Part shown: positions 2,344-16,730 of the stretch, piece after piece
How positions within the stretch are numbered: the first letter of the stretch is position 1
Layout: each line of letters begins with the position of its first letter
IMG/VR virus record: IMGVR_UViG_3300036881_000188
Coordinates: 60,054 to 124,053 of that record
Source: a virus
Strand: one strand, 5' to 3'
DNA: 64,000 bases
Translations under genes and position numbers: made by a program
Notes under the pieces: model-generated
Databases searched by the model: none
The model's input: only the letters and a program-made list of their open reading frames with translations
Told to the model about the DNA's origin: nothing

Positions 2344-2750
2344 TCGAGTTTGGGTGCGGATGGGTAGCGGGCGACGGGTTGATATTCCCGCCGGCGAAGT
2401 CAGAGCAGGAGCCGAAAGGCGTTGACTGCAAGGACTTCGTGGCTGACCAGTGCACGGGAAACCAAGAGTAGGCCAAACGCAAAGTAGATTCAGTTCGAAA
2501 CGCAAAGTAGCCCAGACGGAAGTACCTTCGACACACAGCGGACGAGGCTTTGGCTGCACCCAAAGCAAATTGGGCACGGAACAAGGCACCAGGTGGGCGA
2601 CGCACACCACGATAAAAACGTTGACACTGTGCCCACAGATGCGGGTCTTGCCGTGGAGATTCCGGAAAGAACCGGCTCCAAAGTTGATTAAAGGCTCACT
2701 GGCGAGAGTCTCCCGCATCAAGTTTCCTCAGAAATGGGGAGTATAACGCT
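2344..2750 (+). other. gene-free leader block upstream of the tmRNA
   Basis: About 400 bases carry no convincing gene. They hold a small GNRA hairpin (GCC-GAAA-GGC near 2412), two direct copies of AAACGCAAAGTAG (2475-2487 and 2498-2510), a TTGACA hexamer (2621-2626) without a good partner, and TATAAC at 2742-2747 just before the first tmRNA piece. The block probably holds the tmRNA promoter and perhaps another structured RNA. A 98-codon plus-strand frame (2450-2746) lacks a ribosome site and looks random. Confidence 0.5.
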
Positions 2751-3036
2751 CGTGAGAAGACAGATCGTCTTCACGATTTCGGACGAGGGTTCGATTCCCT
2801 CCGGGTCCACCAAAGCCCTCATGCTTTAGCTGAAGTTCACCGAACTTCGGGGGAATGTAAGTCAGAGAGGGCTTTGGTGGGCCCGTCACGGTTTCGACGG
2901 AATCAGTGACGGATAGAGATGACGAGCCGGGTGGTGTGGCTGCCGTGTCGATCTCTGGATCGGCAGAAGGACACACAGACGCATATATGCCAACACTGGG
3001 TATGTCGCCAGCATGACGTTTGAGGTCTTCGAACCG

Positions 3037-3081
3037 GCCACGGCCGCGGAGAACATCCTGGGCGTTCTTGCTGCTGTCTAG
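3037..3081 (+). other. tmRNA tag reading frame
   Basis: Inside the 5' piece, a frame reads ATAAENILGVLAAV and stops at TAG 3079-3081. The hydrophobic Leu-Ala-Ala-Val end fits a degradation tag, although most bacterial tags end in Ala-Ala rather than Ala-Ala-Val. The stop sits within a perfect 8-bp hairpin (GTCTAGTC 3076-3083, loop CGAAA, GACTAGAC 3089-3096), matching the usual helix 5. The resume codon (GCC 3037) is inferred and could be a codon or two away. Confidence 0.75.
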
Positions 3082-3127
3082 TCCGAAAGACTAGACGGGG
3101 CCAAGTCTGCTTGGCCTGGCAACAGAA

Positions 3128-3145
3128 GGGCGCCTTCGGGCGCCC
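3128..3145 (+). terminator. UUCG hairpin at tmRNA end
   Basis: GGGCGCC-TTCG-GGCGCCC forms a perfect 7-bp stem with a stable UUCG loop. No clear U-run follows, so it may act as a terminator, a 3'-end stabiliser or a last tmRNA helix. The same 18 bases recur at 4075-4092. Confidence 0.6.
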
Positions 3146-3202
3146 AGCAGACCGGACGCGCATTATACAGAAACATCATGTATTCCATGTCACAAAAGAT
3201 TC

Positions 3203-8750: not shown

Positions 8751-9938
8751 ATGGCAGACACCACGATGAATGAGCACACTCATCCCCCTGAATGGTGGCG
8801 GGAGCAGGAGCGGATCGCTGGTTTAACCACAGCGACAGCGCTTGAGCCAGATGAACCATGCAGCCATGTCGGCTGTTTATCCCACACCAGCCATTCTTGC
8901 GAAGGGTGCGGCCGTACCGGCGGCGCCGTTGCACATCAGGAAGATATTCCTGACATGAGTGATTACGACCCCTCGACAGATCGGTTCGCAGAGTTCGGCG
9001 CGCCTGGTTCACCAGAGCGCCATGAGTTTTCTCTTGCCATGATGAAGGCAAGTATAGCCGCCGGGGAAGAGTGGTTGAAGAAGCCCGAGTCGGAGAGATA
9101 CAAGCCCAAGGGACCCATCTGGGATGTGTCATGGCCGACCTACATCGAGAGCTGGCCGAACGCTTTGCACAGCTTGTCAGTTCCCTCAGTAAGGGTTCAG
9201 ATGACCCTGGAAGAAGCGCGCGTCATGGGCAGCTACATCATCGAGCTGGGCGAAGGATTTACCGAGGGTGTGCCCGAGAACCACGAGACGGTAAAGGATC
9301 TCCTGATCGCGCGGCTGGACAAGGCCGTTCAGCAGTTCCCAAAGGGTATCTTTGTCCGCCTTGGCTCGCGCAGTCCGAAGGATGCTTTTTACTGGGGATG
9401 TGGCCTCGGCGAAGGCGCTCAGTTGCCAAATGGCCAAATCACCTCAGGCCAGATGGCTTTCGATCTCCTGACCTGCTGTTCCGAGCGCATCTATGACGAC
9501 CTGCATATGCAGATCGCCATGAACTACCCGCCCAGTGTTTGGATCCGTGAGGGCCTGGACCTGCCCGAGTGGTCAGAGTTCCGTTGCTTCATGCAGGACC
9601 GCAAGCTCGTCGGGATCAGCCAATACTACTACCGCGGAGTGTACTCGGAGATTACCGAAGACGCCGCCGGCATCAAGTGGGCGATCGAGCAGTTCTTTGA
9701 CAAGGAATTGCGAGATGCTTCTCATCTCGATTCAGTAGTCTTCGATGTGTTCATCAAGCGCCGGCGGAGTCTTTCTGACAGCTATAACCAGTACGGTGTC
9801 AAGCTGTTGGAAATCAATCCCTTTTACAACCTGAGTGATCCGTGTCTGTTCGATTGGAACCGGCCGGAGGAATTCAAAGGTCAGATCCGATTCAGGACTG
9901 AGCTTGGCGGCCACCGTTCCGGTGTAACCGATCTATAG
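8751..9938 (+). CDS. hypothetical protein, 395 aa
   Basis: I do not recognise this protein. The ATG at 8751 has TTGGAGAAAC upstream and clears the tRNA; the frame is open to 8712, but that part lies in the tRNA. Residues 30-65 hold Cys/His (CSHVGCLSHTSHSCEGCG), a likely zinc site. The C-terminal half is alpha/beta with FDVFIKRRRS and a Tyr-rich stretch (LVGISQYYYRGVY). Its size and position just before the PRTRC cassette could make it a partner, but nothing proves this. Confidence 0.75.
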   Translation: MADTTMNEHTHPPEWWREQERIAGLTTATALEPDEPCSHVGCLSHTSHSCEGCGRTGGAVAHQEDIPDMSDYDPSTDRFAEFGAPGSPERHEFSLAMMKASIAAGEEWLKKPESERYKPKGPIWDVSWPTYIESWPNALHSLSVPSVRVQMTLEEARVMGSYIIELGEGFTEGVPENHETVKDLLIARLDKAVQQFPKGIFVRLGSRSPKDAFYWGCGLGEGAQLPNGQITSGQMAFDLLTCCSERIYDDLHMQIAMNYPPSVWIREGLDLPEWSEFRCFMQDRKLVGISQYYYRGVYSEITEDAAGIKWAIEQFFDKELRDASHLDSVVFDVFIKRRRSLSDSYNQYGVKLLEINPFYNLSDPCLFDWNRPEEFKGQIRFRTELGGHRSGVTDL

Positions 9939-9971: not shown

Positions 9972-10559
9972 ATGTTCACAGAACTGATGCCGATTCTGAA
10001 GAGTCGGCCCGTGACGATTACGATCGCTTCGGTTGACAAGACCAAAATCAGGGTCAACGTCATTCCCAAGGCGGTCGACAGTGACAGCCAGCTGACCCGC
10101 GACGTGACCCAGAAGGAAGGCGTGACAAAGGAAGATGTTGCAGCCTTGATCACACCCCTATCCCTGGTGGGCACACCCGAAGAGATCGACGCTGAGCTGC
10201 CTCAATTGCTGGCCAGCTACTCCGACGGCCACACAACCGTTCTGGAAAGCCTGAAGGAACTCCAGGAGACGCTTGCCGAGGTTGCCAAGTCAGCCAAGGA
10301 AGCAACGGCGAAGGCCAAGACCAAGGTGACGCCGGCGAAGGCCGACAAGAAGGATGAAGGCAAGCCTGCCGTTCATCCAACCAAGACAACGGCTGGTACT
10401 GCCCAGGCCCCGGATACCTTCACACTCTGGGAGGCCGCGGGCGATGCCAATGCCGCTGCCGCCGTTCACGCCGAGGAACCCGCTGCGGCACCGCCGGCAG
10501 AAGACGGCGAACTTCCCGCTGAACTACCAGACGGATTCGACGAAGGCGAGGCCGAATAA
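9972..10559 (+). CDS. PRTRC system protein E
   Basis: The N-terminus MFTELMPILKSRPVTITIAS, then RVNVIPK (about residues 27-33), TPLSLVGTPEEIDAELP (about 61-77) and a helix, match PRTRC protein E. The C-terminal 90 residues are Ala/Lys/Pro-rich and disordered. PRTRC cassettes are named for ParB- and ThiF-related members; the role of E is unknown. The next gene starts in the stop codon (TAATGG), so E and C are coupled. Start 9972 has no strong site close by (GGGCGAGGACAACC). Confidence 0.82.
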   Translation: MFTELMPILKSRPVTITIASVDKTKIRVNVIPKAVDSDSQLTRDVTQKEGVTKEDVAALITPLSLVGTPEEIDAELPQLLASYSDGHTTVLESLKELQETLAEVAKSAKEATAKAKTKVTPAKADKKDEGKPAVHPTKTTAGTAQAPDTFTLWEAAGDANAAAAVHAEEPAAAPPAEDGELPAELPDGFDEGEAE

Positions 10560-10768
10560 TGGCAGTCAAAGTCGAGAAAATGACGCGGGAGTTCGTGTTC
10601 GATGATGCAGTGTTGCCGGACCCCAATCCGGAATTCACCATCGAGCAGGTGCGGGCGATGTACGCTCCGCAGTACCCCGAGATCACCACGGCAACAGTTG
10701 TGGGCCCTGAGGCCCGCAACGGCAAGCTGCGGTTCCGCTTCGGTCGGGCAGTGGGTGCCAAGGGGTAG
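10559..10768 (+). CDS. PRTRC system protein C (ubiquitin-like family)
   Basis: The protein has 69 residues, the family length. The LPDPNP motif (about 18-23), EQVRAMYAPQYPEITTA (about 29-45) and terminal FGRAVGAKG match PRTRC C, which Pfam-type analyses place among prokaryotic ubiquitin-like proteins. The chain ends in a single Gly, the position used for conjugation in ubiquitin-like proteins. With the E2-like B and E1-like ThiF genes downstream it could be the modifier, but conjugation has not been shown for this cassette to my knowledge. Confidence 0.85.
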   Translation: MAVKVEKMTREFVFDDAVLPDPNPEFTIEQVRAMYAPQYPEITTATVVGPEARNGKLRFRFGRAVGAKG

Positions 10769-10772
10769 TCAG

Positions 10773-10985
10773 TTGACCAGATCATCAAAGAAGGTTGCCT
10801 TGATCCGCAGGCTCAATGAGTTTGCGGATCAGGGTGATCCCGCTTCGATTGCCATTGTTGGCGAGGTTGTGAAATGCGAATCCGCGCGAAAGATAGGGCA
10901 GGCTCTGCATGTGCTGTTCGACAGGCGTCAACGAGACAAAGAGCTGCTCACTCCCGCCGCGAGTCTGATCCATCCGTTGGTCTGA
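10773..10985 (+). CDS. hypothetical protein within PRTRC cassette, 70 aa (TTG start)
   Basis: The TTG at 10773 lies 4 bases after PRTRC C. The protein is helical and mixed-charge (ALIRRLNEFADQGD, then ESARKIGQALHVLFDRRQR). It has no match I recognise and is not a standard PRTRC member. Its stop overlaps the presumed CTG start of the F gene (CTGA). Confidence 0.6.
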   Translation: MTRSSKKVALIRRLNEFADQGDPASIAIVGEVVKCESARKIGQALHVLFDRRQRDKELLTPAASLIHPLV

Positions 10986-11980
10986 TCGCGCCGGCCAACT
11001 TTCTCCGCCTGCCAAGTCTGCGCGGGGTGCAGTTCCAGTACACGGTTCGCCGCGATATGGAGCTGGCTCTCAAACCGCTAGAAGTTCTGGTGGACAAAGG
11101 CTATGTGAGGAATGAACACATCGAGGGTGCCAAAGATGTTGTTGAAGTTCTGATCCGGGCGCTGAAAGACATGCTGGCTTCCTGTTGGTGCGAAGAAGGG
11201 TTTGAGATTCACTTCGAGCTGAGCAGTGAAGAGTGGATGCGGAAGGCAAAGAAGGAACCGTTGTACTTGTGTTTCTCCTGGACCAATGGGTCGATGCAAT
11301 ACATGGCACTGGATACGGTGGTCCAACGCCTGGGCAATGCTCCTGAGTACGAGAAGCTGATGGCGACGTTCTACTGGCTGATCTATGGCGCAGCCTGTGC
11401 CGTGACGATGCCTTTCTCTTTGAATGAAGCCAAAGCCGAATATGAAATACGTCAGGATTACCTGGCTGAAGAGAGGGAGCAAGGGGAAGAGCCTCTGGCT
11501 GAGGAGCTCGCCGATCCCAATGACTGTCCGGTGTATCTCAAGGAAGCCAGCCGGTTAAAGTTCGCCGAGCGTCGCATCAAAGCAGCCTTCGACACCATTC
11601 CCGATGAGGAATGCAAGGCACTCTTCCTGACCTGCTTGGAAGCCTACAAGCTTTCCAAGACGATCAAGTTGTCGAAGACAATCCCCGAGCTGGAATACTC
11701 CGTCGGGAATGCCCGGTATTACGACGGCGCTTCGCAGATCGGTCTTGCCCTCGGTGTCGACAGGAAGGACAACATCACCGCCTGGATCGATGAATACCAG
11801 CAGGACCTGTACAACAGCGGCTGTGACCCGACGCCAACTATCGTCCGGGGTTATCGGCCTGATGACTACCAGGCATTCGCGCAGCTGTTCGAAGCTCTGC
11901 CTCGGATGGTCAAGCTGATCGGCCTTCTGAACAAGTGCGTGATGACAGTTGAGGAGTGGGAGAAATGCACCTCGAAGTAA
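10982..11980 (+). CDS. PRTRC system protein F
   Basis: A protein of about 332 residues, with an N-terminal LRLPSLRG segment and a long helical body ending in LIGLLNKCVMTVEEWEKC. Order and size fit PRTRC F between C and B. The start is unclear: CTG 10982 overlaps the preceding stop (CTGA), GTG 11027 is later, and ATG 10874 would overlap the previous gene by 112 bases with random-looking residues. A dense acidic patch (about 155-180) and several Trp/Tyr are visible. The function is unknown. Confidence 0.72.
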   Translation: MIAPANFLRLPSLRGVQFQYTVRRDMELALKPLEVLVDKGYVRNEHIEGAKDVVEVLIRALKDMLASCWCEEGFEIHFELSSEEWMRKAKKEPLYLCFSWTNGSMQYMALDTVVQRLGNAPEYEKLMATFYWLIYGAACAVTMPFSLNEAKAEYEIRQDYLAEEREQGEEPLAEELADPNDCPVYLKEASRLKFAERRIKAAFDTIPDEECKALFLTCLEAYKLSKTIKLSKTIPELEYSVGNARYYDGASQIGLALGVDRKDNITAWIDEYQQDLYNSGCDPTPTIVRGYRPDDYQAFAQLFEALPRMVKLIGLLNKCVMTVEEWEKCTSK

Positions 11981-12678
11981 ACATTGGGATGCGCCATGAG
12001 TACACCCTGAACAAGGTGCTGCTCTACTATGCTGGCGGAACCGAGAAGGACAAGTCCGGATTCCTGACTGAACACACGCCGGTTTGCCTGGACGGGGAAC
12101 TGCAGGTCGGCCCTGGCAGCCTCATCTCGATCGAGTTGTTGACTGAACTCCTGGAGACTCTTGGGCAGAAGACCGGCCTGGTTTACCTGCCGCCGAATGT
12201 CATCGCCTGCACCTCCAACGCGATTGTCTGGTGGACGCCGGCAAGAAAGCGGGCCATGTTCTTCCACAAGGAAGAGGCTGCAGCTCTGAATGGCCAGGTG
12301 TTTCCTCACCCGGCTTTGATCTGGATCGTCAACCGCGGCCGCTTATCCTTGCGCGCTCTGGCTGGGGATCACCGTCCTGATCCGGAAGATCCACTCTTCG
12401 TGGCTCCCTACTGGAACACCGAGCCCGGTCGAGGAAGTGTCTGCTCCGGCAGCATGAAGCGGCCGAGGGTCACCGACGTGTCCACGTTGGAAGTCTGGGA
12501 AGAAGGTTTCTTCGATAGCGAATTCACCCATCCCAGCGGAGCTGGCGTGCTTACCAAGCACCCCGGAGGTTTCCTTGGGCTGTGGACGGAACTGGCCGGC
12601 GCTGAAGCCTTCGGCATCGAGTATCTGCACTCCTCCAAACAGACAGTTCGTGACTTGCTGACTGAAGGATGCCAATGA
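11965..12678 (+). CDS. PRTRC system protein B (E2-like family)
   Basis: The protein has 237 residues. YLPPNVIACTSNAIVWWTPA (about 74-93), FPHPALIWIV (about 113-122), APYWN (about 147-151), GSVCSGS (C160) and FTHPSGAG then HPGGFLGLW (about 188-207) are the conserved PRTRC B landmarks. The family is grouped with prokaryotic E2 (ubiquitin-conjugating) domains; C160 is the best candidate for a thioester cysteine, by inference. ATG 11965 has GAGGAGTGGGAGAA upstream and overlaps the F gene by 16 bases. Confidence 0.85.
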   Translation: MHLEVNIGMRHEYTLNKVLLYYAGGTEKDKSGFLTEHTPVCLDGELQVGPGSLISIELLTELLETLGQKTGLVYLPPNVIACTSNAIVWWTPARKRAMFFHKEEAAALNGQVFPHPALIWIVNRGRLSLRALAGDHRPDPEDPLFVAPYWNTEPGRGSVCSGSMKRPRVTDVSTLEVWEEGFFDSEFTHPSGAGVLTKHPGGFLGLWTELAGAEAFGIEYLHSSKQTVRDLLTEGCQ

Positions 12679-12959
12679 AGAACACAATCGCTGTTACCGT
12701 TGGGTTGCGTTATCGCTTTCAGGACTTTGAAATCGGAACCATCCTGGAGTGCAAAGGCAGCTTCTACATCAAGACCACGGGCAAGTATCCGCTGGTCGAT
12801 CTAACGACTGGGGTGAGCCTTCACTACGCCCTGGTCGAGAAGATGGAATTCTCTCTGCTGAACATGGGCTCGCGGTTGACGATCACAATCTTCAACAAGC
12901 AGAGGCTACGTCTTCGCAACAAGTACAAGCGAGTCAAGAGATCGGTGGCAATCCCTTGA
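12675..12959 (+). CDS. hypothetical protein within PRTRC cassette, 94 aa
   Basis: The start ATGA 12675 overlaps the B gene stop (an ATG at 12669 is also in frame). The sequence is beta-rich (TVGLRYRFQDFEIGTILECKG) with a basic tail (LRLRNKYKRVKRS). It lacks the histidines of a JAB peptidase, so it is not the usual PRTRC A. It ends with TTGA, overlapping the ThiF start. Confidence 0.65.
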   Translation: MKNTIAVTVGLRYRFQDFEIGTILECKGSFYIKTTGKYPLVDLTTGVSLHYALVEKMEFSLLNMGSRLTITIFNKQRLRLRNKYKRVKRSVAIP

Positions 12960-13783
12960 ACCACAAGCTGGATCACAGATGCTCACGGACCCGCGTCGCA
13001 GTGGTGGGATGTGGAGGGACAGGTAGTGCGCTGGCCGGCGGCTTGCCGTACATCAACCAGTCCCTCCTTGCCGAGGGACAGCCAGGTCTCAATGTCATCT
13101 TCGTTGATGGCGATCGCATCTCCTCCACCAATTGTGTAAGGCAGCCTTTCTCCCAGTCGGAGATCGGCCTGTACAAGTCACTGGTTATTGCCAACAGGCT
13201 GAACCTCTTCTGGGGACTGAAATGGAACGCCTCCACTGGGCACTTCACAGAGAAGACAGATGGGGTTGTAGACATCCTGATCACCTGTGTGGATACGCGG
13301 GCGGCCAGGCTGGCCATCAGCCGGTCTCCAGCCTTCAAGAAGACGCTCTACTGGCTGGACATCGGGAACAATGCCGACAACGGCCAGTTCGTTCTGGGCC
13401 AGCCCCGGAACCGGCGCAATCAGCATGCCAAGTACCGTCTGCTTACGGTCGCGGAACTCTACCCGGAGATCATCGATCCCAGACTGGACGGCGAGGACAC
13501 GCTGCCCTCCTGCAGCTCCGTCGAGGCGTTGAAACGACAGGAGCCCTTTGTGAACCAGGTGCTGGCCAATCACGCGCTCGCTTTGCTGGCGCGGCTGTTC
13601 AGGCACCGCGAGGTTTCCTATCAAGGAGGCTTCGTCAACCTCGCCACCGGCCAGATGGCGCCTATACCGGTGACCCAGTGCGAACGCAAGAGGAAACATG
13701 CTGCAAGAGATTCTGTTTCGCCAGCTCGACCCGGCGGAAGAGGCCGATTTCCGCAAGTACGCTCAGGAGAACGATCCGCCTGA
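12956..13783 (+). CDS. PRTRC system ThiF-family (E1-like) adenylyltransferase
   Basis: The protein has 275 residues from TTG 12956 (TTGA overlap). The nucleotide site VAVVGCGGTGSA (about 14-25), IFVDGDRISSTN (about 48-59), NCVRQ with the conserved Asn and Arg, and ITCVDTRAAR (about 104) are the E1/ThiF landmarks. LPSCSS (about 183) offers a candidate catalytic cysteine. E1-like proteins adenylate the C-terminus of a ubiquitin-like protein; here the partner would be PRTRC C. The last 25 residues are Arg-rich and overlap the next gene by 86 bases. Confidence 0.87.
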   Translation: MNHKLDHRCSRTRVAVVGCGGTGSALAGGLPYINQSLLAEGQPGLNVIFVDGDRISSTNCVRQPFSQSEIGLYKSLVIANRLNLFWGLKWNASTGHFTEKTDGVVDILITCVDTRAARLAISRSPAFKKTLYWLDIGNNADNGQFVLGQPRNRRNQHAKYRLLTVAELYPEIIDPRLDGEDTLPSCSSVEALKRQEPFVNQVLANHALALLARLFRHREVSYQGGFVNLATGQMAPIPVTQCERKRKHAARDSVSPARPGGRGRFPQVRSGERSA

Positions 13784-14001: not shown

Positions 14002-14619
14002 ATGGCAGGAATCAAGGTTCATTTCGATGGCAAGATTGGCAAGCAGCCGGAGTTGCAGGGTGAAGGCGACAAGGCTTGGGTGCAGGTCGGCGTCGCCACC
14101 GAGCGGTGGGTCGGCGAAGGCAAGGGCGACGTCCGCAACTACAACGGCCAGGATCAGACCACGGCCTACAAGACCACTTGGGTCAACGTGGTTGCATTCG
14201 GCCGTCAGGCTCAGTATGTTGCCGAACGGTTCAGCCCCGGCGACACGATCGTCATCAACGATGGCGAGATGGAGTTCACGACCTATTCGAAGAAGGACAA
14301 GCAGAGCGGCAATGTGATCGACAACGCGGCCGTCGGCTTCCGCTGCGTTGCGCGCGACATCTCCGGTCCGTTCCGTGTGGTGCCTAAGAGCGAAAACAAC
14401 GGCAACAGCAACGGGAATGGCGGGAACGGGAACCATCAGCAGGCCGCTGCGCCCGCACAGCAACCGGCCCCGCGTCAGACGGCAGCTCCTCGTCAGGCCG
14501 CGGCGCCCCGCACACAAGCGGCAGCTCCCGCAGCCCGGCAGACACAGCAGCGGCAATCCGCCCCTGCGGCTGTCCAGCCCGCGCAGCAGGCCCTGATCGA
14601 CGACGACATCCCCTTCTGA
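14002..14619 (+). CDS. ssb: single-stranded DNA-binding protein
   Basis: The protein has 205 residues. The N-terminal OB fold spans about 1-125 (VHFDGKIGKQPEL, VATERWV, TTWVNVVAFGRQAQYVAERF, GDTIVINDGEM). A long Gly/Asn/Gln/Pro/Ala-rich linker follows, and the chain ends in DDDIPF, the acidic tip by which SSB recruits replication and repair enzymes. The ATG has GGAAGAGAAGC upstream. The 124-base leader contains the two motif boxes described separately. Confidence 0.95.
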   Translation: MAGIKVHFDGKIGKQPELQGEGDKAWVQVGVATERWVGEGKGDVRNYNGQDQTTAYKTTWVNVVAFGRQAQYVAERFSPGDTIVINDGEMEFTTYSKKDKQSGNVIDNAAVGFRCVARDISGPFRVVPKSENNGNSNGNGGNGNHQQAAAPAQQPAPRQTAAPRQAAAPRTQAAAPAARQTQQRQSAPAAVQPAQQALIDDDIPF

Positions 14620-15260: not shown

Positions 15261-15595
15261 TGAGCTTGAATGCAGCACTGAACGCTACCATCGCGTTGAT
15301 TGAGAACCGGCCGGCGCAGTTCCGGGAAATGCTACGCGAACCGACATCGGATGTGAAGAACATCTCGCCGGTGTACAGCCGCATGATCCGCTCTCTGGAC
15401 TTCTATGCGGCCACAAAGATCCGTATCGCCCTGATGGCAGCCTTGCATGTGCAACCGACAGAGGAACAGCTCACTGCGTGTCCGGACTACACGAAAGCAA
15501 CGCGCGCCGATTTCGAGCGGAGCTTCTTCGACGGTGTGACCGCTGTTGAAAAGGTCTTTGAAGGCATTCTCAACATGCTGGAGGAAAAAGAATGA
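15260..15595 (+). CDS. hypothetical helical protein, 111 aa
   Basis: The start overlaps the preceding TGA at 15260. The protein is all-helical (LNAALNATIALIENRPAQF; FFDGVTAVEKVFEGILNML), ending KEE-rich. It overlaps the deformylase gene by ATGA. No family is recognised. Confidence 0.68.
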   Translation: MSLNAALNATIALIENRPAQFREMLREPTSDVKNISPVYSRMIRSLDFYAATKIRIALMAALHVQPTEEQLTACPDYTKATRADFERSFFDGVTAVEKVFEGILNMLEEKE

Positions 15596-16113
15596 CCGCA
15601 ATCTGCGAATATCCGGACGGCGTAATTCTCAAGACCTGCGAACCAGTTGATGCTGAGTTTGGCGAGGGTCTCTCGAATCTGATCGGCGACATGAAGGAAG
15701 CTTGCCACTCCTTCGGTGGACAAGGCCTGGCCGCCAATCAGATCGGCGTCTTGAAGCGGGTCATCATCTACCAGGACAACCAGGGACAGATGCAGTCCCT
15801 GACCAATCCCGAGATCATTGAGTTCGGTTCCGAAACATCGGCGGCCGCGGAGGGTTGCTTGAGCCTGCCCGGCCTGCAGGTCAAGGTTACTCGTCCAACG
15901 GAGATCACCGTCACCGGGCTGACCGAAGACTTTCAACCGATCACTATGGTCGCCGAGGGCCTGGAAGCACGAGTCATTCAGCATGAGATCGACCATCTCA
16001 ACGGCATCTTGATCGTCGATCACCAAGGTAAGCTGAACCGGAAGATGATTCTCGACAAGTGGATGAAGAAGACGATTCAGTTCCGCCGCCACGAACGGAA
16101 ACTGGCGGCATGA
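15592..16113 (+). CDS. def: peptide deformylase
   Basis: Deformylase removes the formyl group from new proteins. All three metal-site motifs are present: GQGLAANQIG (about 43-52), EGCLSLPG (about 87-94) and QHEIDHLNG (about 129-137). The Cys of motif 2 and the two His of motif 3 bind the metal. At 173 residues it has the full bacterial length, longer than many trimmed phage forms. Translation is coupled at both ends (ATGA). It joins tmRNA and PTH2 as translation-support functions. Confidence 0.95.
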   Translation: MTAICEYPDGVILKTCEPVDAEFGEGLSNLIGDMKEACHSFGGQGLAANQIGVLKRVIIYQDNQGQMQSLTNPEIIEFGSETSAAAEGCLSLPGLQVKVTRPTEITVTGLTEDFQPITMVAEGLEARVIQHEIDHLNGILIVDHQGKLNRKMILDKWMKKTIQFRRHERKLAA

Positions 16114-16730
16114 AGCTGATCATCTACACGGATGGTGGCAGCCGTTCAAACTCAGCCACCGAGCCGGGCCCAGCGTCCTGTGCCTTCGTCGCATTCGATG
16201 AGCAGCACAAATACGTTGCCTGCCTGAACGAGACTCTGATCGGCAGCAACAACGTTGCTGAGTACCGGGGTCTGCTGCTGGCTGTAAACAGCCTGGACCC
16301 GTTGCTCGACTTCACATCCGACGTCGATCGTATTGAGTTCCGCGCGGACTCCCAGCTCCTGGTCAATCAGATGACCAGAGAGTGGAGATGCAAGGACGAG
16401 AACCTGATAGCACTTCAACATCAGATTAGAGAAATCCTGGCTTTCTATTCAGGCATTGTCATTTCGTACGTGTGGTATCCGCGGGAAGAAAACAGAGATG
16501 CCGATTATCTCTGCAACCTCGCTCTCGACGGCACCATCATCGACAACATGTTCGGGCCGCTGCCTGTCAAAACCAAGGTCAGAGGCATCTCTGCCGGCCA
16601 ACTGTTTCGTGCCGGCCGTTTGACCGAATCCCGGCCCCTGCGTGTAGATCCCGAGGGCTATGCCCTCTGTGGCTCCTGTAAAGAACGTCTCACCAACTGC
16701 AAGTGCCCGCCACTTGAGGAAGCAGTATAG
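16110..16730 (+). CDS. ribonuclease H with C-terminal Cys cluster
   Basis: RNase H cuts RNA in RNA-DNA hybrids, for example primers. Residues YTDGGSRSN (about 6-14), NVAEYRGLLLA (Glu about 48), FRADSQLLVNQ (Asp about 76) and ENRDADYLCN (Asp about 131) give the four acidic residues. After a linker, residues about 185-200 read CGSCKERLTNCKC, a possible zinc site not part of standard RNase HI. The start is the ATGA overlap with the deformylase. Confidence 0.88.
   Translation: MKLIIYTDGGSRSNSATEPGPASCAFVAFDEQHKYVACLNETLIGSNNVAEYRGLLLAVNSLDPLLDFTSDVDRIEFRADSQLLVNQMTREWRCKDENLIALQHQIREILAFYSGIVISYVWYPREENRDADYLCNLALDGTIIDNMFGPLPVKTKVRGISAGQLFRAGRLTESRPLRVDPEGYALCGSCKERLTNCKCPPLEEAV

Follow-up and report, generated by a model that had tools for sequence, protein, structure and literature searches.

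A PRTRC-type gene cassette on a viral record

The DNA analysed here, the window, is a stretch of 64,000 nucleotides corresponding to bases 60054-124053 of the 124,053-base viral record IMGVR_UViG_3300036881_000188. At window positions 9972-13783 it harbors, on the + strand, a cassette with the gene order E-C-X-F-B-Y-ThiF, which resembles the PRTRC sets and the type 6d ubiquitin-like operons of Iyer et al. (2006). The genes are tightly coupled: E shares 1 nt with C, X begins 5 nt past C, F and B overlap, and B and Y as well as Y and ThiF overlap by 4 nt each. An earlier reading made from the sequence alone (the original prediction) had described E, C, F, B and ThiF as a coupled operon, and both the gene overlaps and profile searches bear this out. 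Using NCBIfam with its curated cut-offs and Pfam with its own, E, C, B and ThiF were each matched by a curated model, while F was placed by homology below these models.

PRTRC E (9972..10559, 195 aa) was matched by TIGR03741 (63.2 bits, cut-off 37.95) and is 34-39% identical to E of Acidobacteriota; its score for Pfam PRTRC_E (24.8) lies slightly below the cut-off of 26. PRTRC C (10559..10768, 69 aa) is ubiquitin-like, as had been predicted (TIGR03738, 80.4 bits, cut-off 46; PF14454 Prok_Ub, 85.1 bits). It ends with ..RAVGAKG followed by the stop codon, so that the last residue is Gly69 and the protein is encoded already mature; the glycine motif is kept in all compared C proteins. PRTRC B (11965..12678, 237 aa) belongs by family to the E2-like proteins of family D (TIGR03737, 156.7 bits, cut-off 131; PF14460 Prok-E2_D, 126.5 bits). 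Its candidate catalytic residues are Cys160, already singled out in the original prediction and present in 42/42 aligned B proteins, and His189, present in 41/42. PRTRC ThiF (12956..13783, 275 aa, TTG start) is E1-like, again as expected (TIGR03736, 237 bits, cut-off 145; Pfam ThiF, 50 bits). The GCGGTG nucleotide (ATP) motif, Lys74 and the candidate thioester residue Cys186 (PSCS) occupy invariant alignment columns, and remote sequence similarity to the NEDD8, UBA5 and Cap2 E1 domains was found. The presence of an E1-like ThiF beside B is a feature of type 6d operons. In PADLOC, E, C, X, F, B and Y were unmatched and ThiF showed weak E1-E2 similarity only; none of the proteins matched a Bil protein.

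PRTRC F (10982..11980) is mostly helical and its start is uncertain (CTG 10982, GTG 11027, or ATG 10874 within X). The open reading frame (ORF) 10838-11980 was matched at E=8e-6 by a profile made from F of other sets, and F is 30-34% identical over its full length to F of Acidobacteriota. TIGR03742 (PRTRC F) did not match it, and F scored below every curated model. A structure model of moderate confidence (predicted local distance difference test, pLDDT, 70) was mostly helical, in line with the description of this protein by Iyer et al., with very low confidence for residues 1-47 counted from ATG 10874, and a structure search of the PDB with it returned nothing significant. Judged by the profile, the full-length similarity and its position in the usual F slot, F is a diverged member of the PRTRC F family.

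A sister phage assembly of 178 kb, with a ThiF that is ~99% identical, carries the cassette at the same place, although the two assemblies differ. Between the two phages 44 synonymous and 9 nonsynonymous codon differences were counted in E, C, F and B together, and E-C-F-B is therefore under purifying selection. In C alone 4 synonymous and 0 nonsynonymous differences were found.

A conserved small gene at the C stop codon

The original prediction had noted two extra small proteins interleaved in the operon. This holds for Y, which was found in this phage and its sister only, but not for the ORF at 10773, which is no interloper. This ORF, here called X (10773..10985, 70 aa, TTG start), ends with ..LLTPAASLIHPLV and is a conserved, unannotated PRTRC component. 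In sets L096, L098 and L172 the corresponding position holds an ORF with 38-40% identity to X, and the Acidobacteriota counterparts all end with ..IHPLV. For a broader comparison a sample of 158 sets having C, B and ThiF was used. In 123 of them an iterated profile detected a member of the X family directly at the C stop codon; the start of X lay most commonly at -3 nt relative to the C stop (56 sets), followed by -7 nt (38 sets). Elsewhere, matches at E<1e-3 were confined to four C genes fused to X (L050, L054, L055, L065) and a fragment beside its own C (L101). Most of the 35 sets that lacked a profile match have, as judged by eye, an ORF with a similar ending at this place or a fusion. An X-like C-terminal motif was present in 75 sets in an ORF located at the C stop, and a further 6 sets had it where a fused C ends, compared to 1.4% of 20,112 small ORFs elsewhere; as the motif was defined after examples had been seen, these counts are descriptive and do not amount to a blind test.

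Codon positions were compared in 162 pairs of Burkholderiales sets. In X, 1504, 1075 and 2647 differences fell on codon positions 1, 2 and 3, respectively. The pattern persists in the X frame throughout the final 108 nt of X, which overlap the annotated F (720/651/1457), and changes to the F frame in the 60 nt beyond the X stop. This is independent evidence that X is translated. Because the X frame holds across the overlap, annotated F starts (for example that of plasmid pMOL28) are probably ~110 nt too early. On pMOL28 itself X lies unannotated between PRTRC C and F (L011:5355-5555), and the annotated F start is located inside X. Neither Pfam nor NCBIfam gave a match for any of 32 X proteins. 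X is likely a new component of PRTRC sets, one that would have escaped annotation owing to its small size and its frequent overlap with C.

Other explanations for X were considered and rejected. That X is a shadow of the F frame is contradicted by the codon positions. A split-off extension of C does not serve as a general rule, since in Mu-like phages a separate X exists in addition to a C extension, and fusions occur in some sets only. Finally, the ratio of 2 synonymous to 4 nonsynonymous differences between the two phages had raised the idea that ORF 10773 is non-coding; the numbers are too small for this, and the conservation elsewhere carries more weight.

Lack of a JAB gene and the C-terminal tail of C

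The original prediction had seen neither PRTRC A, the JAB protein, nor the ParB-like member of PRTRC sets, and directed searches agree with this. In the analysed stretches a profile of A matched nothing with a meaningful E-value, and a Prok-JAB search with working controls was likewise negative; the PRTRC_A model matched nowhere, controls included, and the absence of A therefore rests on the A profile and the Prok-JAB search. For the ParB-related gene, our own ParB profile was silent in the window and in stretches L003-L005; this gene is also absent from many phage and Bacteroidota PRTRC sets. The usual slot of A is occupied by Y (12675..12959, + strand), an ORF of 94 aa without a match in Pfam, NCBIfam, PHROG or PADLOC, which among viral contigs recurs in the sister contig only. 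Given that Y has no A-profile or family match and is unique to the window phage and its sister, the idea that it is a degenerate A was rejected.

Across the 158 sets the presence of A is linked to the end of C. In the 34 sets without A, C ends exactly at the conserved glycine in every case (34/34). Among the 124 sets with A, C has residues past the glycine in 110 and none in 14, so that every set with a tailed C (110/110) carries A. A naive Fisher test gives p = 1e-23, although the sets are related and a minimum of two changes in A is required on the ThiF tree. Such a pattern would be expected if C is trimmed by A, so that loss of A is tolerated only where C is already free of a tail. The pairing offers a simple prediction of what A does.

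An unusual C was encountered in the cultured Bacillus phage vB_BauM_KLEB27-3, where gp199 (L009:751-1458), annotated as hypothetical, consists of four head-to-tail Prok_Ub repeats and resembles a polyubiquitin-like precursor. Repeats 1-3 end with ..KAGVKG and repeat 4 with ..KAGVKG-MPRIVVK, and E2-D-like (weak), JAB-like and ThiF genes lie nearby. Since a fused-repeat C with a short tail occurs here near a JAB gene, we take it as support for a processing role of A. Variable extensions of C past the glycine, often with a helical-looking ..CPLLDEEVAFINALHARY domain, were observed in Mu-like viral contigs (L021-L082). The viral contig L178 (IMGVR_UViG_3300014872_000006) has C, F, B, ThiF and a weak ParB match but no A; its C ends with ..AVGAKG and the next ORF with ..LLPPAGSLLPPV.

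Phage setting and distribution of related sets

The description of the genome as phage-like is confirmed by the rest of the record. Outside the window, the same 124-kb record encodes a major head protein (phrog_3922), a portal protein (phrog_9232) and a terminase (phrog_9), all identified by PHROG matches, so that capsid, portal and terminase genes of a bacterial virus (tailed phage) lie on the cassette's own record. The nearest sequenced phages by portal are Acinetobacter phage ME3, Bacillus phage KLEB27-3 and Moorella phage MTATph1 (27-31% identity). Within the window, genes for primase, clamp, clamp loader, DNA polymerase, ribonucleotide reductase (NrdA) and ligase were identified, and the flanks of the cassette proved to be viral rather than plasmid-like or chromosomal.

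Upstream, the cassette is adjoined by a D123/CDC123-type ATP-grasp protein (9201..9938, + strand; PF07065, 77.9 bits, cut-off 24; a longer ORF starts at GTG 8712), and downstream by a single-stranded DNA-binding protein (SSB; 14002..14619, + strand; PF00436, 36.9 bits, cut-off 26). For the ATP-grasp clade to which the D123-type neighbour belongs, protein modification was predicted by Burroughs et al. (PMC4431377). Both neighbours would be compatible with a role of the cassette in the replication phase. Further downstream, a peptide deformylase gene adjoins an RNase H-like gene (15592-16113 and 16110-16730). One ATP-dependent DNA ligase family was matched by three separate proteins of the window phage (window 25842-26879 and 28645-29739, and L005:8651-10315). 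ARAGORN reported a tmRNA at window 2720-3172 with an unusually long, asterisk-flagged tag peptide, which may be spurious.

PRTRC sets had been regarded in the original prediction as mostly plasmid-borne or chromosomal, which has to be corrected, as they are not rare on viruses. When viral contigs were scanned with an alignment of ThiF, 195 relatives were obtained, and cultured Burkholderia phage BgVeeders33 carries a complete set. Among the best 80 of the 195, which were kept, the sets mostly show the full order E-C-F-B-A-ThiF, some with ParB. The BgVeeders33 terminase was matched in 20/50 of these records, 13 of them at 40-43% identity; the remainder, in particular the records with ParB, could include plasmids. 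A description of phage PRTRC sets was not found in the open-licence literature. The phage setting as such is not new, because PRTRC genes occur on many viral contigs, BgVeeders33 has a full set and an existing annotation names one gene of ME3 as PRTRC system protein A. What look new are the pairing between A and the C tail and the recognition of X as a conserved gene.

The closest sets were found in metagenome-assembled genomes (MAGs) of Acidobacteriota, with the same order, no A, and identities of 65-67% for ThiF, 62% for C and 47-49% for B. By these comparisons the cassette has an origin near the Acidobacteriota sets, which suggests that the window phage may have an Acidobacteriota host. Both Acidobacteriota and Bacteroidota sets are without A within 7-kb flanks.

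Proposed function and alternative explanations

Taken together, these results suggest that the cassette is a variant of the PRTRC or type 6d ubiquitin-like conjugation operon that is carried by a phage and lacks JAB, a reading to which we assign a probability of roughly 0.6. We infer its working as a whole, including each catalytic step, the roles of E, F, X and Y, when the genes are expressed and which proteins are targeted. ThiF would adenylate the C-terminal Gly69 of C and then form a thioester with it, probably on Cys186; C would next be handed to Cys160 of B, and B would join it to target proteins, with E, F and X (and possibly Y) serving as specificity or assembly factors. As C is encoded mature, no protease would be needed to start the cycle, and as no JAB is encoded, the phage would be without a deconjugating enzyme of that family of its own. 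Given the location of the cassette among replication genes and near the SSB and ATP-grasp genes, its likely use would be the modification of host (or phage) proteins during infection. A more far-reaching version, in which the virus tags host proteins in a way that its own genes cannot reverse, using a mature modifier, with the protease dropped and X as a core component of the whole class, is put forward tentatively and appears somewhat unlikely in all its parts.

Several points weigh against the proposed conjugation operon. According to Iyer et al. (2006), a JAB gene always accompanies the type 6d E1 genes, either adjacent or fused (PMC1779556), and this feature was not found in the window set: Prok-JAB was absent from the 124-kb record and the 178-kb sister, whereas the same search was positive in 11/14 control genomes. 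Covalent conjugation of C is something that we infer from sequence, and a JAB encoded by the host could act in trans. The confident model of B (pLDDT 90.6) retrieved no solved structure from the PDB with Foldseek at E<=0.001 (against a viral structure library it gave two matches, unnamed or uncharacterised), and because of this the E2 assignment rests on the profiles and the conserved residues. The pairing of A with a tailed C traces back to about two independent losses, so that a kinship-aware pairing test is powerless, and ThiF and Y have changed too little between the two phages to reveal selection.

The possibility that a host supplies a processing or deconjugating JAB in trans, the phage set being half of an ordinary reversible system, draws on the fact that JAB-domain genes are common in bacteria, as in the control genomes mentioned above. 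The Acidobacteriota and Bacteroidota sets, which are themselves without A in their 7-kb flanks and whose C needs no trimming, speak against it, and we consider it unlikely. Still less probable is that the set serves sulfur carriage or the biosynthesis of small molecules by ThiS/MoaD-ThiF chemistry, in which C would act as an unconjugated thiocarboxylate. ThiF is indeed weakly similar to thiamine ThiF models, and sulfur transfer can be performed by single-domain E1s in which no catalytic-cysteine domain is recognised. However, an E2-family protein with an invariant Cys always adjoins ThiF, the scan of neighbouring genes identified neither a sulfurtransferase nor a thiamine/molybdopterin gene, and 6d operons were classed as regulatory, not metabolic (Iyer et al., 2006; PMC1779556). 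It is very improbable that the cassette is passenger cargo or an assembly artefact without function in the phage: although it is the sole block common to the window and other PRTRC loci, it lies at the same place in the second, differing 178-kb assembly, all key residues are retained, and the 44:9 ratio of synonymous to nonsynonymous differences points to function.

The strongest of the alternatives, which we regard as possible although not as the favoured one, is a weapon between genetic elements, acting either as counter-defence against host immunity or in a Bil-like exclusion of rival phages. It would fit the unrelated mobile carriers of PRTRC sets (conjugative plasmids, 33-kb and larger phages, integrated elements) and the SSB and ATP-grasp genes beside the cassette, and Bil employs the same biochemistry for defence (PMC11354881); by analogy, an anti-defence role is plausible. 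On the other hand, the present analysis indicates no target, PADLOC has no models for the cassette proteins apart from the weak E1-E2 similarity, and PRTRC, ThiF and ubiquitin are unmentioned in the main text of a survey of anti-defence genes in leading regions (PMC11541004).

As early as 2006, PRTRC or type 6d operons were predicted to be ubiquitin-like systems. If the proposed conjugation operon is correct, such operons are carried by many phages besides plasmids, and the window set is a minimal version (mature modifier, E1 and E2, no protease) that can be directly expressed and tested. A reconstitution from annotated genes alone would omit X. The main value of the analysis is that X and the pairing of the C tail with JAB render a long-predicted system directly testable.

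Comparison with known systems

The window set shares with the type 6d operons of Iyer et al. (2006; PMC1779556) a ubiquitin-like protein with a C-terminal glycine, a helical protein, an E2-like protein with a Cys and a downstream His, and an E1-like protein, and differs from them by the absent JAB. With the PRTRC system (TIGR03734-03742) on pMOL28 of Cupriavidus metallidurans CH34 it has in common the order and strand of E, C, F, B and ThiF and the presence of X after C; in contrast to pMOL28, it is without A (JAB), without ParB and without the 5-residue C tail, and has the phage-only Y in the A slot. The Acidobacteriota sets L096, L097 and L098 (Angelobacter / Terriglobia MAGs) agree with it in the arrangement E-C-X-F-B-ThiF, in having no A and in a C that ends at Gly, but lie on cellular contigs (with DUF932, helicase and DUF6094 neighbours), have no Y and start X with ATG.

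Among phages, BgVeeders33 (OK665841) likewise carries E, C, X, F, B and ThiF, but is a 33-kb phage with a Mu-like tail, in which A is present and C has a long C-terminal extension. KLEB27-3 and ME3, near to the window phage by portal, also possess a ThiF gene, together with JAB/PRTRC-A-like genes; in KLEB27-3, unlike in the window, C consists of four fused repeats and JAB is kept. In ME3 (L192:5465-11504), ThiF and PRTRC-A-like genes occur with a weakly C-like protein of 63 aa whose last residue is not glycine; this set may have diverged or be in decay. Because their sequences are far from the window set, those of KLEB27-3 and ME3 are probably separate gains. Finally, Bil (BilABCD) and type II CBASS Cap2/Cap3 have bacterial E1-E2-ubiquitin-like biochemistry in common with the predicted activity of the cassette, and its ThiF is remotely similar to Cap2; they differ in belonging to other families and in being host defence systems with JAB.

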